A stretch of DNA of 64,000 bases, taken from contig JAIELF010000017.1 in NCBI GenBank assembly GCA_019753235.1, positions 111,105 to 175,104 of the forward strand, given 5' to 3'. Of this stretch, positions 2,146-9,289 are shown piece by piece (within the stretch, counting starts at the first letter, position 1; each line of letters begins with the position of its first letter). The notes beneath the pieces are model-generated. The model was not told the DNA's origin. It ran no database searches and saw only the letters and a list, made by a program, of their open reading frames with translations. The position numbers and the translations under genes were made by a program. This DNA comes from a bacterium. Its GTDB lineage: Bacteria > Planctomycetota > Planctomycetia > Kolteriales > Kolteriaceae.

Positions 2146-3945
2146 ATGGAATGTGATCCGATAACACTGGCTGTCTTCAAGGAACTAGCAAGCTCCATAG
2201 CAAAACTGGTTGTAAGCAAATGCGCTCAATTCAACTTTTTTGGGAGCACGTCAACCGACATATCCGACGGATGCAACCGTAAGTTACAAAGTCATTTAAC
2301 TGAAGTTGTAAGTTGGTCTCAAACTATACACTTTTTTGGCATGCCTAATCCTCGCGATACTCCAAACACCACCGTGCCTTTAATTATGAGCACTTTGCCG
2401 CGAAAATTTAGTTCCTCTCAATCAGAATTAGCCACCCTCTCAGAAGGAGATCTGCTTCAAACTAGTGGGCATGCTGTGCTACTAGGTGACCCTGGTGCCG
2501 GCAAGACTACAACAATGAAGCGACTCGCATTACGCCTATTAACTTCCGACTCAGATCACGATAGCGACACATGGGAATGCCCAATATGCCTACGACTTCG
2601 GCGCATCAATACTAGCATCCCCCTGCACTGTGCACTTGCTGATATATTCGGAATATCTTTCGGCATTGACCCTAGCAAATCACAAGACGCCTTAGAACGC
2701 CAGTCAAATGAGATCCGAGTTGCGATTACAGACATCTTGAATAATGGCCGATTCGTAGTTTTGCTTGATGGTCTTGATGAGGTTCATCCACAAGCATTCA
2801 ATGATATTTGTGCACAAATCGTCGAGCTCGGATACTGCTTAACGCAATGCAAGATAATCGTATCGTGCCGTTCCGGTGCTTATCAGAAACACCTTGACGG
2901 CTATTCAACCGCAGAATTAAAGCCGCTCTCATCCGATCAAATACGCGCAGTCACGTTACACTGGCTTGGAACAGAGGATCTGGCTGATGAATTCTCCCAG
3001 CAGGCAGAGCTATCACGTGCAAGTGATTTACTCGACCGCCCCCTCTACTTGGCACAATTGCTGGTGGTTTTTCAAAATAGCGGATACCTTCCACAACAAC
3101 CAACATACTTAGCTCGACGAATTATTCTGTTGATGCTTGAAGGATGGGATGCAAAACGATCCTTGCACCGACCGTCCATGTATGCCAATTTCGACGCGGA
3201 AGGCAAGTTAGAGTTCTTGTCGTGCTTAGCGTTCGAGTTATTGCTGGATGCAAAAACAGAATTCGACACGTTTACACTTCAAGAAGCATATAAACGCATT
3301 CATGGCAAGTTTGGGCTACCTGAACGAGAGACAGAGCAAGTTGTGAGAGAACTTGAGGCACATACTGGGCTTATCGTCGAGTCAGTCTATGATCTATGGT
3401 CATTCTCTCACTTATCCATTCAAGAATATTTGAGTGCCAATTATATCGTACGTGCGCCGTTTGATACTACAACTCGCGCCATGTCCAACACTTATCCGGA
3501 GGTGCTTGCAGTTGCAATCGCCTTGTCATCTGATCCTACAGAGTGGTTTATAAAATTGGTCTCTGAACCACTTAACTATGCGAAATCTCGAATCATTGGC
3601 GATGGACCTCGCTTTTCGAAGAGATTGTCGCAAGAGCAACCGCGCTTTTCGCGATCATCAAGCCTCGGCGCGTGTTACATGCGATTTGCGCTAAGTTTTG
3701 ATATCGATGCGACTGTCCCCCTACTAAGCATTCCTAACGTCTGCGAATCAGTTCTGCTAGTGTTGCCATATTATTGTTCAGTTCGTGTACGCAAGAATAA
3801 TGAATCGATTGATAGTGAACGGGTATGCGTTAGTAAGGATAAGTCATATCAATTACCGCAAGAATTTCGCGATGATGCAGGAATCGTAAAACCAGGATTT
3901 CTTTCGAAACTTGCTGCAGAAATTAGTAAACATCTTCATATCTGA
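2146..3945 (+). CDS. NACHT-type STAND NTPase, candidate anti-phage protein
   Basis: A 599-residue protein. A ~105-residue, largely helical N-terminal region precedes the NTPase, which has Walker A GDPGAGKTT (residues 114-122), Walker B LLDGLDEV (206-213, with the small residue and second acidic residue typical of NACHT), and a sensor-like SCRSGAY (240-246). The winged-helix hallmark FSHLSIQEYLSANYI follows at 420-434. The final ~165 residues show no LRR, TPR, nuclease, TIR or protease motif. Bacterial NACHT proteins are known anti-phage immune ATPases, so defence is the likely role by family and setting. The gene is visibly AT-richer than its neighbours and uses codons such as tta and ata freely, which points to horizontal transfer. 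It starts only 20 bp after an IS1380 end. The effector domain is not identified. Confidence 0.85.
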   Translation: MECDPITLAVFKELASSIAKLVVSKCAQFNFFGSTSTDISDGCNRKLQSHLTEVVSWSQTIHFFGMPNPRDTPNTTVPLIMSTLPRKFSSSQSELATLSEGDLLQTSGHAVLLGDPGAGKTTTMKRLALRLLTSDSDHDSDTWECPICLRLRRINTSIPLHCALADIFGISFGIDPSKSQDALERQSNEIRVAITDILNNGRFVVLLDGLDEVHPQAFNDICAQIVELGYCLTQCKIIVSCRSGAYQKHLDGYSTAELKPLSSDQIRAVTLHWLGTEDLADEFSQQAELSRASDLLDRPLYLAQLLVVFQNSGYLPQQPTYLARRIILLMLEGWDAKRSLHRPSMYANFDAEGKLEFLSCLAFELLLDAKTEFDTFTLQEAYKRIHGKFGLPERETEQVVRELEAHTGLIVESVYDLWSFSHLSIQEYLSANYIVRAPFDTTTRAMSNTYPEVLAVAIALSSDPTEWFIKLVSEPLNYAKSRIIGDGPRFSKRLSQEQPRFSRSSSLGACYMRFALSFDIDATVPLLSIPNVCESVLLVLPYYCSVRVRKNNESIDSERVCVSKDKSYQLPQEFRDDAGIVKPGFLSKLAAEISKHLHI

Positions 3946-4239
3946 GAGTATATTGTCTTAAGGTATTCAAGCTATTTTGTTCTTTCGTAAAGCCCTAATT
4001 TTTCGTGTTTCTTGTCACTTCTCCTGCCGTTGACTTAAGAGATACGCCGTTATGCCCTGTCGCGACAACTCAAGCTGATTATCTCACGCTCCGCAACGCC
4101 GACTTCGAAGACCCGATACTAGAAGACGGAGAATCTATGGTAACGTCCGCAAGCTTGCGCAGATTTTGAAAGTTGGCACTCCGTGATCGGGTAGGTTTCG
4201 GTGCTTTGAACTGAGACTTACTTTCACAGAGGGAGTGCC
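3946..4239. other. Junction between the NACHT gene and IS256-family debris
   Basis: AT-rich DNA follows the NACHT stop. From about 4044 it turns into a fragment of a secreted-protein gene (annotated separately), and from about 4138 into what is probably the left end of an IS256-family element upstream of its transposase. No intact gene or clear terminator is seen. Confidence 0.5.
4044..4140 (+). pseudogene. Remnant of a secreted-protein N-terminus
   Basis: One frame reads ADYLTLRNADFEDPILEDG, which resembles the mature N-terminus of planctomycete PEP-CTERM proteins (a NADFEDP segment just after the signal peptide). The preceding signal-peptide-like stretch is broken by a stop and frame shifts, and the downstream part is replaced by insertion-sequence DNA. 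It may be the 5' stump of the gene whose PEP-CTERM tail survives at 7079-7348, but this cannot be shown from sequence alone. Confidence 0.35.
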
Positions 4240-4635
4240 ATGGAGAGTGTAACGAACTTTTCGGATGAGGGAAGCTTCTCTGGTGACGTCGTTCGCATCG
4301 ACGAGGGGAAGCTTCGGGGTCATGTGGACCAGGTGGTGCGGGCGAGCGTCGAGGAGACGCTCAACGGGCTTTTGGAAGCCGAGGCGGATCAGTTGTGTAA
4401 CGCGAAGCGTTACGAACGAACTCCGGACCGTGTCGATACCCGTGCCGGCAGCTATGAACGCCAGCTCCACACGAAGGCGGGCGAAGTGACGCTTAAGGTG
4501 CCGAGGCTTCGCACCCTCGCCTTTGAGACGCAGATCATCGAACGATATCAGCGTCGAGAGAGCAGCGTGGAAGAGGCCCTGGTGGAGATGTACTTGGCGG
4601 GCGTGAGTGTTCGCCGGGTGGAGGATATCACATAA
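4240..4635 (+). pseudogene. IS256-family (mutator type) transposase, truncated
   Basis: The 131-residue frame matches the N-terminal third of IS256-family transposases, including VPRLRTLAFETQIIERYQRR and the motif SVEEALVEMYLAGVSVRRVEDIT, which normally continues into a catalytic domain for a total near 400 residues. Here it stops immediately after RRVEDIT, where the DNA switches to a tyrosine-recombinase fragment on the other strand. All catalytic acidic residues are missing, so this is inactive debris. Confidence 0.85.
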
Positions 4636-4636
4636 G

Positions 4637-4819
4637 TCACCTTGGCCATGCCTCGATCTCTTTGAGCGACAGAGCCCGACGATTCTTGGTAGGTCGATCA
4701 TGCTTCAAGTGCCGAATCTTTCCAATCGGGTTGGAGCCGATGAGCCCCCACTCCACCGCACGATTCAAGACGTTGACCATGATGCCGACTTCTCGGTTCG
4801 CCGTTCGGCCGGGTGGCAC
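4637..4819 (-). pseudogene. Tyrosine recombinase (phage-type integrase) fragment
   Basis: The 60-residue frame reads TANREVGIMVNVLNRAVEWGLIGSNPI followed by a basic stretch and LSLKEIEA. This is the end of the SAM-like core-binding domain and the start of the catalytic domain of phage-type integrases. The catalytic Arg-His-Arg-Tyr part is absent because the frame ends at the junction with the IS256 fragment. It shows that an integrative element once occupied this place. Confidence 0.7.
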
Positions 4820-4951: not shown

Positions 4952-5410
4952 TTATGACTGGTTGTCATCGTAGCTGGGGTCGCATCTAGCCAGCTCCTGA
5001 TCGAGCGGAGAAAGCAATTCAACCACTGCGTCGCATTGTGATTTTACTTCAAGTAGGATGTGTTTAGCCTCGGCATGCAATCCGTGGTCAATAAGGTGCC
5101 TTCCTACTTGGATTCCAATTGCGACACGTCGCCAGCTGTCTTCAAGCCAGTAGGATTTCAGCAAATTAAACTTTTCTACACATCGACTGTAATTACAATT
5201 ATAATTTATCGTTCCAATTAGAAGTCGCTCTGCAACCGCTTGATGTCCTTTTACTGTGTACCTTGGGTCTGATTCAATCGTGAGAATGTACCGTGAGAGC
5301 GCTGAGTTTATTTGTTCTTCAAAATGACGATGCTCAATCTCTCTATGCAAGGAAAAGATAGAGTCCAATGTAGTTATAAGCAAATGAAAAGCTTCGTCAA
5401 GAGTGTTCAT
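4952..5410 (-). CDS. Hypothetical AT-rich orphan protein
   Basis: A 152-residue protein that I do not recognise. It appears helical throughout, with alternating hydrophobic and charged residues, and has no signal peptide, membrane segment or catalytic motif. The second half (GIQVGRHLIDHGLHAEAKHILLEVKS) could form a TPR-like helical pair. Base composition is clearly AT-richer than the core genes and similar to the NACHT gene, suggesting a shared foreign origin. It is bracketed by two 21-bp direct repeats and lies in a region of broken mobile elements. It may be a cargo gene of a lost element. Confidence 0.6.
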   Translation of the reverse strand: MNTLDEAFHLLITTLDSIFSLHREIEHRHFEEQINSALSRYILTIESDPRYTVKGHQAVAERLLIGTINYNCNYSRCVEKFNLLKSYWLEDSWRRVAIGIQVGRHLIDHGLHAEAKHILLEVKSQCDAVVELLSPLDQELARCDPSYDDNQS

Positions 5411-5539: not shown

Positions 5540-6757
5540 CTAGGGCGAGGCTACTGGTTCGACGATATCGGGAATGCCGTCCAAAATCGTTATCTGATAC
5601 TTCACCGCTCCCCGAGATTTGGAGGCTAAGTTCGAGCGATCGGAGTAAAGCTGCGTCAACTGCGTCCTGAGGATCTGCTCATCCGAATCGAGCCGTTGTT
5701 GACGTTCAGGAAGAGCTTCGTACTCGGGAGTGTTTAACTTGTTCAGCAATTCGCGATACTGCGTTACCTCTTTTTCCTTGAACTCCAGCCGGCTCTTGAT
5801 TTTTCTATATTCATTGACTCCAAAAGGAAACTGTCCAGGTACATCACTTCGCTTGAGAATCGCGGCGCTGGCCATCGCTTCCTTGAGAGCTAATTCTGCC
5901 TCCTTCACGTCATTTTCCGGCGCCTTCTCGCTCTTAAGCGTGGCGAGTCTCTCCATGCGTGATTGAACAACCTGCTGCCAGTCCTGAGCAAGCGGGTCCA
6001 ATTCCGGAGGGGGCCCCATATTGATCAATTGCTCGCGGAGCTGCTGGACTTGACCCTCGGCGCTCCCCAGGAATTGCTCGACCATTCGAAGTCCGTCATG
6101 GCGAAAGTTCAGCGGAATAGCTTGCCAAAGCTCTCGGACTTGCTTTTGCTCGACGCGTACTTTCTCCAGACTGTCTTTTGTAGAGGCAACCGAAGCCAAC
6201 CACTCTTTGCGGGCTTTCTCGCCGGCGGAATTAATCGCATTCGCCGATTCATCGAACGCACGCTGGAGCTCTTCTTTCACGGCCACCAAGAGCCGTTGAC
6301 CATCTCCATCCTTCCAATCAACTCCATCCACACGATAGAGTAGCATGTCAATACGCGTGACTCGATTGGTGTCAAACGAAATCAACTGGACTGCCGCGCG
6401 AGCCTTCTCACTCTTATCACTCAACGTCTTTTTTAGGACCCCCTCCATAAATGCCGACGAAGTCATGATGGCAGTCGCTTGCGGAGGGTAACTCGACCGA
6501 TCGGAGTCGGCATCGACCTGGATCACCATGGAGGCATGTTGAACCGGGGTCCCTTCCGGTTTGGTTGACGGCCAAGTAACCCCCGTGCCGAACATGGGCG
6601 AGAGCAGGCCAGACCGAGGCGGCGGGGACGTCCCGAACAACCTGAGAATGTTTGGTGCATCCCCTCTTTTCGTCTTAAGTGCCGAGTCGTCTCCGATGAC
6701 CTCACTCGCTGCCAAGACGAGAAGCACCGCCAGCCAGCTACCAAAACTTGACTTCAT
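5540..6757 (-). CDS. Secreted coiled-coil protein of unknown function
   Basis: A 405-residue protein starting with a clear signal peptide (MKSSFGSWLAVLLVLAAS). I place the start at 6757 because the open frame upstream runs into the end sequence of an IS1380 remnant (6809), so the extra 26 residues are not native. After a Pro-rich linker, residues ~115-145 resemble a small beta domain (AAVQLISFDTNRVTRIDML), and from ~160 to 385 the protein is rich in Glu, Gln, Lys and Leu in heptad-like spacing, so a long coiled coil is likely. The end is hydrophobic (YQITILDGIPDIVEP). No family is recognised. It is probably periplasmic or secreted. Confidence 0.75.
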   Translation of the reverse strand: MKSSFGSWLAVLLVLAASEVIGDDSALKTKRGDAPNILRLFGTSPPPRSGLLSPMFGTGVTWPSTKPEGTPVQHASMVIQVDADSDRSSYPPQATAIMTSSAFMEGVLKKTLSDKSEKARAAVQLISFDTNRVTRIDMLLYRVDGVDWKDGDGQRLLVAVKEELQRAFDESANAINSAGEKARKEWLASVASTKDSLEKVRVEQKQVRELWQAIPLNFRHDGLRMVEQFLGSAEGQVQQLREQLINMGPPPELDPLAQDWQQVVQSRMERLATLKSEKAPENDVKEAELALKEAMASAAILKRSDVPGQFPFGVNEYRKIKSRLEFKEKEVTQYRELLNKLNTPEYEALPERQQRLDSDEQILRTQLTQLYSDRSNLASKSRGAVKYQITILDGIPDIVEPVASP

Positions 6758-6808
6758 GATCCGTGACTCCGTGAAGTGGACCCCAAAAACTGGACCGGCG
6801 GATAGGTT

Positions 6809-6948
6809 AACCGACATTTCCCAGATGGCTCCCATGAGCCACCATTGAGCCGAAGGTACCGACCCGCTCTCCGAGAATCAACGGTTTTCCGACCGGCGTC
6901 CGGCTCAGTTCGCTTCCGTTTTCGATTGGGTTCCGCGCCATGGCAGCT
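6809..6948 (-). mobile_element. Remnant of an IS1380 right end
   Basis: On the minus strand this stretch is homologous to the right end of the complete element (about 1985-2125): it shares the terminal AACCGACATTTCCCAGATG and the adjoining GGCTCnnGGGAGCCAT region with moderate divergence. No transposase lies next to it in the expected orientation, so it is a solo end left after deletion. Confidence 0.75.
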
Positions 6949-7078
6949 AAGTATCGACTGGCTTTCGCGCCCGGCCGGGTGGCACTGGCGTGTCGCCAGT
7001 GTGCAGCTAGCGTCTCCGTCCGGTGAACCACACTCTTTAATCTTTCGCTTGATCTGGTCAGACTTCTTTATTCGTCAT

Positions 7079-7348
7079 GGTGAATCGAGGCTCAACCAAT
7101 ATTTGCTTGATCGATACGGACTTGTTACCACGAACCAGTACCGCAACGTCGTGGAGGTGAGCGACGATGGCCGCACGTTCGTTGTGGACAACGGGCGGAC
7201 TCCGTACGGGGGGTCGAACAGGAATTCGATCTACGTCGTCACGGTCGTCGTCCCGGAAGCAAGTGCAACGACGTTGGTCCTTGTTTCTATCGCGATTGCC
7301 ATTCTACCGATCGGCGGTTTCGTGCGTAGCTCGCCGCGAACGCATTGA
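7079..7348 (+). pseudogene. 3' remnant of a PEP-CTERM protein gene
   Basis: The frame ends in VVPEASATTLVLVSIAIAILPIG and a basic tail, a PEP-CTERM-type anchor of the same VPEA class as the protein at 10497-11576. Just before it is a short extracellular-type segment (VVEVSDDGRTFVVDNGRTPYGG). The frame upstream of about 7079 looks unrelated and merges into the IS1380 remnant, so the 5' part has been lost. The gene is probably dead. Confidence 0.6.
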
Positions 7349-7451
7349 TGTTCGCACAGGGAACAATACACCGCACTCGCTGACGGCGCTGTTGCGGCAG
7401 TCGATCTACAGCCGGCTGGGCGGCTACGAAGATCTCCATGATGCCGAATAA
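7347..7451 (+). pseudogene. IS1380-family transposase fragment
   Basis: Encodes 34 residues nearly identical to part of the transposase at 556-1899 (DVRTGNNTPHSLTALLRQS and on to GGYEDLHDAE), then a stop. It starts directly at the end of the PEP-CTERM remnant. Orientation is opposite to the solo right end at 6809-6948, so the two pieces are not a simple internal deletion of one element. Confidence 0.8.
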
Positions 7452-7565
7452 CAGAAGATAGATGATCAAAGAAACTTCGTTTTTCCCGTGACTGGTGCCT
7501 GTTCAGTAATGAAGGACGGTCTCAGGGATCGATTTCGATTTACTCTTCGCGATCGGAGATCGATT

Positions 7566-8393
7566 TTACAGTGGAGCGGGCAAATCCCGCTTACAAAAAA
7601 TGATTGTTGCCAGGATGAAGCAGGCTGTCCCGATGGCCAGCAGGGTGCCGTTCAGATTTAGAAAGAGAGTCCAGTAGGCCTCGGGCTTGGCGTCGATGAG
7701 CCACCAGGGTTCATAGGCGCCATACACCGTGCAATAGCGAAGCGGTTCGAATTGCTCCTTGAGCCGACTGAGAACTTTAACGATGAGCTGAGTCACCATG
7801 AACCCGCCCCCCAACGCAAGCGTTCGCCAGCGATAACGATCGACCGAGCTAAGTAGGGTGGTGACGGCGGCGATCACATAATTCAGGCAGAACAGATTGA
7901 AGACCCCCCGGGAATAGCGTTCGAAATCGACGCCCGTCTTATACTGAGCAAGCCAAACGCCGAGATAGCAGCCGAGCAGGACAATCAGACACAATAGAGC
8001 CGCACAAATCGTGGTGACGACCGCCTGGACAAGGACGATTTGGTAGCGGGGTACAGGCTGGGCGAGGAGTAATTCCATCGTGCCGCGATTGAGTTCGCCG
8101 CTGACGGCGTCGGAACCTCGCGCGACTGCCCAGAGACCGCACGTGAGAAAAAGGGTCGGGTCTACCAGCAAGCCAGCGATTCGGCCGAGCGGCGTGATGA
8201 GTTGACTCAGGGGGATCGGGGTTACTTTCGAAAAGACGTCTGGCAGATTCTCGAGGATAACGTTTAACTTTTCGTCTTCGAATTGGGAACCCATGTAGAC
8301 ATACAGCCCGCTGAAAACGAACAGCAGGGCTCCGGCCGCGGCCGTGAGGATCCAAGCATCGTTAAAGGTCTTCGCCCAGAGAGCCCATCTCAT
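7566..8393 (-). CDS. ABC-2 type transporter permease
   Basis: A 275-residue membrane protein with about six hydrophobic segments: one near the N-terminus (ILTAAAGALLFVFSGLYVYM), a large extracytoplasmic loop, then segments around residues 90, 130-155, 175-190, 200-215 and 245-265. The stretch VSGELNRGTMELLLAQPV is the usual ABC-2 signature before the third helix. It forms the membrane part of an exporter with the ATPase encoded just upstream; the two genes overlap by 4 bp. The substrate cannot be inferred. Single ATPase/permease pairs of this kind often export drugs or lipids or support gliding and surface functions. Confidence 0.88.
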   Translation of the reverse strand: MRWALWAKTFNDAWILTAAAGALLFVFSGLYVYMGSQFEDEKLNVILENLPDVFSKVTPIPLSQLITPLGRIAGLLVDPTLFLTCGLWAVARGSDAVSGELNRGTMELLLAQPVPRYQIVLVQAVVTTICAALLCLIVLLGCYLGVWLAQYKTGVDFERYSRGVFNLFCLNYVIAAVTTLLSSVDRYRWRTLALGGGFMVTQLIVKVLSRLKEQFEPLRYCTVYGAYEPWWLIDAKPEAYWTLFLNLNGTLLAIGTACFILATIIFCKRDLPAPL

Positions 8394-9289
8394 GTTGGAT
8401 CGATCTCCTGGGTTCCGTGGTATCGGTCATAAACCGCTTGCAGGCTGATCGGGTCGATCCGCACCTGATCGATGGGCAACGTTCCGAGCCAACCAAAAAG
8501 CGTGGCAACATCCGATGCCGTCTGCATCACCACTTCCTTCTCTGACGATTCGAGCAGTTCGACGTCCTGACGAAGGTTGTCGGGAATGGTCGGAAACGGG
8601 CCGGTGATTCGGGCGCGAATTCGGTGTTCTCTTTTGATCGAGGCAAGGGCTTCGGTATGGACCAGCTTTCCTCGGCGAAGGATGCAAACCCGGTCGCAGG
8701 TCGCCTCTGTCTCCGAGAGCACGTGCGAGGAAAAGATGATCGTGCGACCCTCCCGCTTGGCTTCGTTGATCAGCGCCATCACTTCTCGTCGCACCGTCGG
8801 ATCGAGGGCAGAGGTCGGCTCATCCAAGATTACCAGAGGCGTCCGAGTCGCCAGGGTCGACACCAAGGCGATTTTCTGCTTCATGCCTGTCGAGCAGAAA
8901 GCGACAAGCCGGGAAAGGTCGAGTTCCAATCGCTCGGCCAGTTGAATTGCTCGCTCGAAATCGCCGGCGGGGTGCATTCTCGCGAAGAATTTAAGAACAT
9001 CTCGGCCACGCATGTTGAAGAAGAGGCGAACTTCGGCAGGGAGATAACTGAGCCGGGCATGGACGGCGACTGAGTCGTGATAGCAATCGAGATTATCGAT
9101 TTTCGCCCAGCCGGCCGTTGGCTTCAGGTAACCCATTAAGAGACGAATGAGGGTCGTTTTGCCCGAGCCGTTGGGCCCTAACAAGCCGAACACTTCGCCT
9201 TCATTGACGCCCAGTTTGCAATGGTCGAGCGCAAGCAGCGAGCCATATTGCTTGGTTAGCCCGTCTGTTTGAATAAGTGCGCGAGTCAT
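8390..9289 (-). CDS. ABC transporter ATP-binding protein
   Basis: A 299-residue cytoplasmic ATPase that powers the permease encoded downstream (4-bp overlap). Walker A GPNGSGKT is at residues 38-45, the signature is the degenerate STGMKQK (133-139) rather than LSGGQ, Walker B LVILDEPTSALD begins at 152, and the H-loop is SSHVLSE. The Q-loop position reads YLPAEVRLF, lacking Gln, which is common in the ABC-2 (DrrA/NatA-like) group. About 75 residues follow the core, as in other ABC-2 exporters with a C-terminal regulatory extension. Substrate unknown. Confidence 0.92.
   Translation of the reverse strand: MTRALIQTDGLTKQYGSLLALDHCKLGVNEGEVFGLLGPNGSGKTTLIRLLMGYLKPTAGWAKIDNLDCYHDSVAVHARLSYLPAEVRLFFNMRGRDVLKFFARMHPAGDFERAIQLAERLELDLSRLVAFCSTGMKQKIALVSTLATRTPLVILDEPTSALDPTVRREVMALINEAKREGRTIIFSSHVLSETEATCDRVCILRRGKLVHTEALASIKREHRIRARITGPFPTIPDNLRQDVELLESSEKEVVMQTASDVATLFGWLGTLPIDQVRIDPISLQAVYDRYHGTQEIDPT

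Follow-up and report, generated by a model that had tools for sequence, protein, structure and literature searches.

A planctomycete NACHT ATPase gene from a separate family that has a specific C-terminal domain and a predicted role in phage conflict

We analysed a stretch of 64,000 nucleotides (the window) from a bacterium of the planctomycete family Kolteriaceae (assembly GCA_019753235.1, contig JAIELF010000017.1, positions 111,105 to 175,104), and in particular a gene lying between insertion sequence (IS) elements that encodes a NACHT-type ATPase of the STAND (signal transduction ATPases with numerous domains) class, designated P0001. Sequence comparison places P0001 in a NACHT family distinct from bNACHT12-like and NCH2-bearing proteins. 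The likeliest role of this family is in conflict with phages, as predicted from two observations: two relatives are carried inside phage head and tail gene clusters, and the family has a patchy distribution, only the source genome among 294 of the phylum having the gene. The gene and its motifs are as follows.

2146–3945, + strand: NACHT-type STAND ATPase gene, intact (599 aa; Pfam NACHT, 41 bits; AlphaFold2 model)
2485–2508, + strand: Walker A, GDPGAGKT (residues 114–121)
2755–2781, + strand: Walker B, VVLLDGLDE (residues 204–212)
3403–3429, + strand: winged-helix hallmark, FSHLSIQEY (residues 420–428)

The NACHT gene and its family

The reading frame of P0001 starts with ATG and runs for 599 codons without an internal stop. 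A preliminary description, made from the letters alone, had noted Walker A and B motifs of the NACHT type and a winged-helix hallmark; all three were confirmed, at residues 114, 204 and 420, and the NACHT core was recognized by Pfam at residues 111–274 above the gathering score (41 bits; cut-off, 26.7). Alignment of 96 sequences gave 14 invariant columns, including G114, G117, G119 and K120 of Walker A, G209, D211 and E212 of Walker B, and R242, P299 and H422. By pattern, Walker A and Walker B were each found in 99 of 100 family proteins, and the winged-helix hallmark in 87. The GC content of the gene was 45.1% (40.5% at third codon positions), compared with 56.4% for the window, so that its description as AT-rich applies only relative to this genome and not in absolute terms. 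The source genome holds a single copy of such a NACHT gene. Outside the NTPase, neither the N-terminal nor the C-terminal flank matched a Pfam family at E ≤ 1. The best NCBIfam match was antiphage protein EruA (63.4 bits, far under the cut-off of 1000), and PADLOC 2.0.0 gave no full-length model match, the best weak partial match being mad8 (20.6 bits, residues 104–134).

Based on a search of 5.8 billion proteins, in which the 7995 candidates sharing most words were scored, we obtained 410 matches at E ≤ 1e-3, and the best 120 of the 410 were examined. Three relatives (P0002–P0004) showed 57–59% identity to P0001 over 99% of its length. Among the matches listed, P0005–P0096 ran down to an E-value of 1.9e-42, followed by a drop to 4.6e-32, giving approximately 95 relatives (P0002–P0096) of 468–706 aa with a median of 612. 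Named members among these matches were from a Verrucomicrobiae metagenome-assembled genome (MAG), Candidatus Kentrum, a Desulfobulbaceae MAG, a Mycobacterium MAG and a Nostoc record. A scan of genome contigs with P0001 returned nothing and a second scan added at least Geomonas, a Thermoanaerobaculia MAG (a partial gene, outside the trees) and Pelagimonas, so that this list of carriers is a partial one. For the family set A3, 63 of the 95 homologues were used.

The distribution of the family is patchy. At 1e-20, matches were found in 2 of 148 related genomes, namely, the source genome itself and an 847-aa frame covering only residues 105–449, while at 1e-30 the source genome alone matched among 294 genomes of the phylum, with at most four first-look candidates per genome scored in the rows examined. 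With the NACHT gene present in only one of these 294 genomes, a housekeeping gene with conserved synteny is not indicated.

In an unrooted tree of 57 NACHT cores, 35 family rows, taken from 99 family proteins, fell on one side of a branch (96/96), and eight clade-14-like rows on another (100/99); P0133, P0098 and P0131 were left out for a missing pattern. The same groups were recovered in a quicker tree that included both phage-borne members and left out P0131 and P0136 (25 and 7 rows, with Shimodaira–Hasegawa-like approximate likelihood ratio test values of 94 and 100). In the clade-14-like set of 10 proteins, bNACHT12 alone is assigned to clade 14 by the published account, the rest having been chosen by similarity. 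A literature search, with the published clade tree (Kibby et al. 2023) outside the comparison, found no paper showing this family, the domain at its C-terminus or the carriage of members by phages; the family may already carry a clade number in that tree. No literature was found that joins EruA or HyoA (both NCBIfam names) with NACHT.

Relatives carried in phage structural gene clusters

Two members of the family were located on viral contigs, each inserted on the opposite strand amid structural genes, as is expected of phage morons. On the first contig (L027), P0124 was strand-reversed, with genes for a tail sheath and a tail or head protein on one side and, on the other, a small gene with no assigned role followed by a tape measure gene. 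On the second (L050), P0135 was strand-reversed between genes for head protease and major head protein and those for head morphogenesis, portal and terminases. The number of phage-borne members is at least two, the viral scans with queries A1 and A5 giving lower bounds; no relative came up when viral contigs were scanned with P0021 and P0006. Just upstream of P0135, on the same strand, we observed a 177-aa open reading frame (ORF; L050, 6741–7274) without a PHROG family, a possible partner or second cargo gene.

Other NACHT genes were seen in viral genomes. A 36-kb viral contig (L051) carries a 600-aa NACHT gene at 7254–9056, shortly after an integrase gene and with a transposase gene adjoining; its product matched phrog_18297 at 1.1e-35, is more distant and is without the C-terminal domain of the family. 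A Vibrio phage (Vinavirales; L036) has a NACHT gene at 5785–7575, near the genome end, labelled NLR_like_bNACHT01 by its depositors and occupying a large share of the 14.8-kb genome.

Among chromosomal loci, one (L002) had a Y1 transposase gene and a NERD protein gene near the family member, and another (L003) had a gene for a Panacea-type antitoxin as neighbour.

A C-terminal domain with a hypervariable tail

The C-terminal region, left unassigned in the preliminary description, was divided into two parts.

3454–3771, + strand: family-specific C-terminal helical domain C1 (residues 437–542; hold-out profile and model confidence)
3772–3942, + strand: hypervariable C-terminal beta tail C2, candidate sensor surface (residues 543–599; identity 0.128, hold-out profile 4/48)

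A hidden Markov model (HMM) of C1, trained on half of the family (47 rows), detected all 48 held-out members, which as relatives of the training rows are no independent sample, together with all four members found later, none of the 10 clade-14-like proteins and one of 26 other NACHT proteins. The single match among the latter, by the model of residues 437–599, was P0098 (434 aa, 31% identity to P0001), which is probably a fragment of a family protein. For the tail of the last ~57 residues, in contrast, the mean pairwise identity was 0.128, and the hold-out HMM found only four of 48. Residues 437–599 are common to P0002–P0004 at 53–55% identity; a search with this region returned the query alone even though these three share it, showing the search to be too insensitive for any absence to be deduced. 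A regular-expression hallmark was also tried, and matched 40 of 100 family proteins and none of 36 others; it was too rigid, and the hold-out HMM was used instead.

Modelled alone, residues 434–599 gave a mean predicted local distance difference test (pLDDT) value of 91.5, and comparison of this model with the PDB yielded no fold match at E ≤ 0.001. The region is likewise absent from Pfam and PADLOC, so that its unassigned status holds. These profile results show that the C-terminal region is a domain specific to the family and ends in a hypervariable tail, which is a candidate sensor surface.

Predicted fold, the N-terminal helix and the proposed mode of action

The AlphaFold2 model of P0001 (pLDDT 91.3, predicted template modelling score 0.89) has a predicted tertiary fold like that of NLR (nucleotide-binding, leucine-rich repeat) proteins, resembling NLRC4 over residues ~39–530, with the structural match beginning at residue 39. 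The sequence profile of the family also matched NLRC4; against NLRP5 entries, the whole-sequence E-value was 3.7e-4, with the best stretch at positions 407–429 and no stretch passing alone. The N-terminus was accordingly divided as follows.

2146–2250, + strand: N-terminal helix, the sole part left for an effector (residues ~1–35, helix 5–27; model, block pLDDT 64–80 over residues 1–40)
2251–2457, + strand: linker helix and pre-NACHT segment (residues 36–104; hold-out HMM 47/48, structural match from residue 39)

Residues 36–104 are conserved in the family and lie mostly inside the NLRC4-like predicted fold. The model thus places residues ~39–104 in the NLR-like module and leaves one short helix (~1–35) as the unexplained N-terminus. 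The preliminary description had found no nameable effector in the N-terminal ~105 residues, in agreement with the lack of a Pfam family at E ≤ 1, but the extent of the unexplained part is to be reduced to residues ~1–35.

Phage carriage, patchy distribution and the variable tail fit a conflict gene. In the proposed mode of action, the NACHT core would hold ADP in the resting state, sensing of a phage product would fall to the C-terminal domain, the core with ATP would assemble into a ring, and the short N-terminal helices clustered in this way would damage the membrane, so that the infected cell stops. The plant resistosome provides an analogy for membrane output by an N-terminal helix. Fungal HeLo is a second analogy in the portion of the literature consulted (PMC7889193), and the BELL/HeLo likeness of the helix (PMC7889193) is to be taken as analogy only. 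As a whole, this single-gene anti-phage switch with C-terminal sensing, an ATP-driven ring and membrane damage by the N-terminal helix is a tentative prediction, falling somewhat short of probable. If the membrane step is left out of the claim, an anti-phage switch is predicted with fair confidence, whereas that step, taken alone, is the weakest link and rather doubtful. We consider it unlikely that P0001 represents a minimal bacterial resistosome, that is, a one-protein NLR from a family without a name in Pfam or PADLOC whose ring makes the ~20-residue N-terminal helix a membrane-breaking funnel, with a new C-terminal sensor that has a rapidly changing tail, traded between bacteria and phages against rival phages. 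Of the earlier proposal of a candidate anti-phage gene, the NACHT STAND ATPase, the mobile surroundings and a C-terminal region outside Pfam and PADLOC are supported. The two relatives in phage structural clusters and the patchy family add support for phage conflict, while the defence role itself is a prediction, and activity of the window copy and the novelty of any killing mechanism are conjectural.

Several observations weigh against the proposed switch. The N-terminus is weakly conserved, as an HMM of residues 1–60 found 30 of 48 held-out rows and none of the four later members. The helix is not unusually amphipathic: the family mean of the best 14-mer moment was 0.530, compared with 0.560 for the internal helix 319–337 (n=84; 9 of 96 rows and 3 helix-turn-helix (HTH) rows left out). 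For P0001 itself the amphipathicity compared with shuffles gave p 0.11, and 30 of 88 members gave p < 0.05. A stretch hydrophobic enough to span a membrane was present in only two of 88 members. An XRE-type HTH replaces the N-terminal helix in 3 of 96 members (P0072, P0083 and P0093; confirmed by Pfam in P0072), indicating that an N-terminal helix effector is not universal in the family. A single-gene system is not secure either, given the same-strand 177-aa ORF upstream of P0135 and, at L002, a same-strand upstream ORF of 520 aa that is ATPase-like (AAA_16, below cut-off). PADLOC returned nothing for two window neighbours, and the IS1380 element beside the start codon may have silenced the window copy. 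On the other side, the N-terminal segments on average exceeded shuffles (z 1.36) and random segments (0.450 versus 0.353) in the 88 of 96 members compared, eight being left out as truncated or HTH-bearing. Membrane activity of the N-terminal helix is therefore only a lead, the helix being not special compared with other helices in these proteins. P0093 stood apart from P0072 and P0083 in the quick tree, suggesting that the HTH swap may have occurred more than once.

The same features bear on an anti-phage NACHT switch without membrane damage, in which docking or oligomerisation is all that the helix contributes, the effect arising through a partner, through sequestering of a phage factor or through the C-terminal region. 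The very short N-terminus, with a mean pairwise identity of 0.147 across the family in the helix region, and the HTH in place of the helix are consistent with such an output, as is the protection against phage by clade 14 bNACHT proteins, which have no readily discernible effector domain according to the part of the published account consulted (PMC12169576). An output through a partner is disfavoured by the lack of a common neighbour seen by eye in L002, L003, L004, L027 and L050; these loci are few, and family names were assigned to just part of their ORFs. Overall, we regard this alternative as possible but doubtful.

STAND proteins also include regulators, and the HTH of P0072, P0083 and P0093 would suit a NACHT-based regulator of transcription or stress signalling that has no defence role and resides on mobile DNA by chance. 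The patchy distribution, the two phage contigs with members inside structural clusters and the hypervariable tail argue against this explanation, which appears very unlikely.

Insertion elements around the window copy

Mobile DNA was identified on both sides of the NACHT gene.

444–447, unstranded: target-site repeat CATA, left (sequence)
448–2125, + strand: IS1380-type element (second copy matching at 89.7% over 450–2123; inverted ends; transposase 556–1899)
2126–2129, unstranded: target-site repeat CATA, right (sequence; the start codon follows at 2146)
4139–4635, + strand: IS256-type element fragment (left end ~4139; truncated transposase 4240–4635)

On the left, the IS1380 element noted in the preliminary description was verified by its transposase (556–1899; NCBIfam IS1380, 383 bits). 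It appears complete, its terminal 20 bases forming inverted repeats alike at 15 of 20 positions, and elsewhere the genome holds a second full copy, about 90% identical, as well as partial ones; the flanking CATA repeat is four bases long, for which a chance match is expected at 1 in 256. The start codon of the NACHT gene lies 20 bp past the element, and this position indicates that the element interrupted the interval separating the NACHT gene from its predecessor (stop at 381–383). On the right, the earlier reading of IS256 and integrase debris stands in its IS256 part, the fragment 4240–4635 matching Pfam Transposase_mut at 110 bits and NCBIfam IS256 at 78.7 bits (under the cut-off of 150), with 4139–4248 recurring elsewhere in the genome at 98% identity; the integrase part, ORF 4637–4819 (− strand), rests on looks and had no Pfam hit at E ≤ 0.01.

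These elements raise the alternative that the window copy is a decaying passenger in a transposon graveyard, unexpressed whatever the family does. The IS1380 end 20 bp ahead of the start codon and the IS256 and IS1380 fragments nearby agree with this, as does a search for sigma-70-like promoters at 1850–2300, which found none (mean of 0.3 in shuffles) in what is a weak test, its consensus being perhaps ill-suited to such an organism. Against decay, IS elements can also supply an outward promoter, no stop interrupts the 599 codons, the invariant residues are retained, and the 57–59% identity to three relatives together with the intact frame suggests selection until recently. We consider decay quite unlikely.

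Further to the right of the IS256 fragment, ORFs 4952–5410 and 5540–6835 had no Pfam family above cut-off, and a gene for an ABC-2 membrane protein also lies on this side; the ORF at 5540–6835 (− strand, 431 aa) had no counterpart at 1e-8 among 18 other related genomes. Comparison of the IS1380 end with the genome yielded 15 matches, a count that takes in the end itself and some partial matches; one falls at 6809–6926 of the window. The segment 6809–6948 is an inverted and diverged right end of IS1380, and 7347–7447 is a separate internal piece, which by similarity represent remnants of a second IS1380 element beyond the NACHT/IS256 stretch. Neighbours in the window include transposase genes and a PEP-CTERM-like gene, and by inspection the gene content appears planctomycete. 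In an empty-site comparison, the flanking genes were not detected at E ≤ 1e-8 in any of the 18 other related genomes.

Comparison with known systems

Bacterial NACHT immunity as a kind is already known, and NACHT proteins of similar build protect Escherichia coli from phages according to the excerpts consulted (PMC12169576). The nearest in architecture are clade 14 proteins (bNACHT12, bNACHT02 and bNACHT11), which, as far as these excerpts describe them, share with P0001 a similar size, a central NACHT, a short C-terminal region and mobile DNA. Of these, bNACHT12 (WP_021519735.1, clade 14 in the same excerpts; PMC12169576) was recovered on an E. coli plasmid as a protein of 612 aa. The short N-terminus without a discernible effector is also alike, with a median of 111 residues before Walker A in 90 family proteins and 110 in nine clade-14-like proteins. 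The family nevertheless forms a separate group in both NACHT-core trees, and its C-terminal HMM finds none of the 10 clade-14-like proteins. The C-terminal profiles of the two sets did not align (E 0.71), but a remote homology between the family domain and SNaCT, the C-terminal domain of clade 14, may exist. A Klebsiella plasmid (L039, 1–3830) carries a NACHT protein gene (WP_015632533.1, 64.5% identical to bNACHT12) adjoining ThiF- and Mov34/JAB-type genes, which together are reminiscent of the ubiquitin-like conjugation genes of defence systems.

NCH2-bearing proteins (PF22727; many cyanobacterial) have the nearer core, the family profile from 45 proteins matching theirs at E 3.2e-57 (21 sequences) and that of clade-14-like proteins at 3.6e-33 (10 sequences). 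They differ in a longer N-terminus (median of 187 residues before Walker A versus 111) and in C-terminal profiles that do not align with those of the family, and PF22727 was absent from P0001 (E ≤ 1) and from P0005, P0006, P0011, P0072, P0049 and P0027 (E ≤ 0.01). Clade 6 proteins bNACHT25 and bNACHT32 likewise have a bacterial NACHT module reported as anti-phage in the excerpts consulted (PMC12169576), but differ in having NCH1 at the C-terminus and, at the N-terminus, a PD-(D/E)XK nuclease; for the nuclease, P0001 gave no Pfam match at E ≤ 1, and the ~35 residues before the module are too short. The phage protein group phrog_18297 is matched by P0001, P0124, P0135 and P0136 and is broader than the family, as P0136 is without the family C-terminal domain (HMM E 320). 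Animal NLRs (NLRC4, NOD2 and NLRP3) resemble P0001 in the predicted fold and, for NLRC4, in the sequence profile, but P0001 has no CARD, PYD or leucine-rich repeat in Pfam (the repeat at E ≤ 1) and is instead predicted to have one short N-terminal helix and a short C-terminal domain.

In conjunction with these comparisons, the family appears as a second group, separate from clade 14, that poses the same puzzle of an absent discernible effector. Useful features of this group are a C-terminal domain with defined limits, naturally exchanged N-termini (helix or HTH) and the members borne by phages, and its hypervariable tail predicts where specificity would be located.
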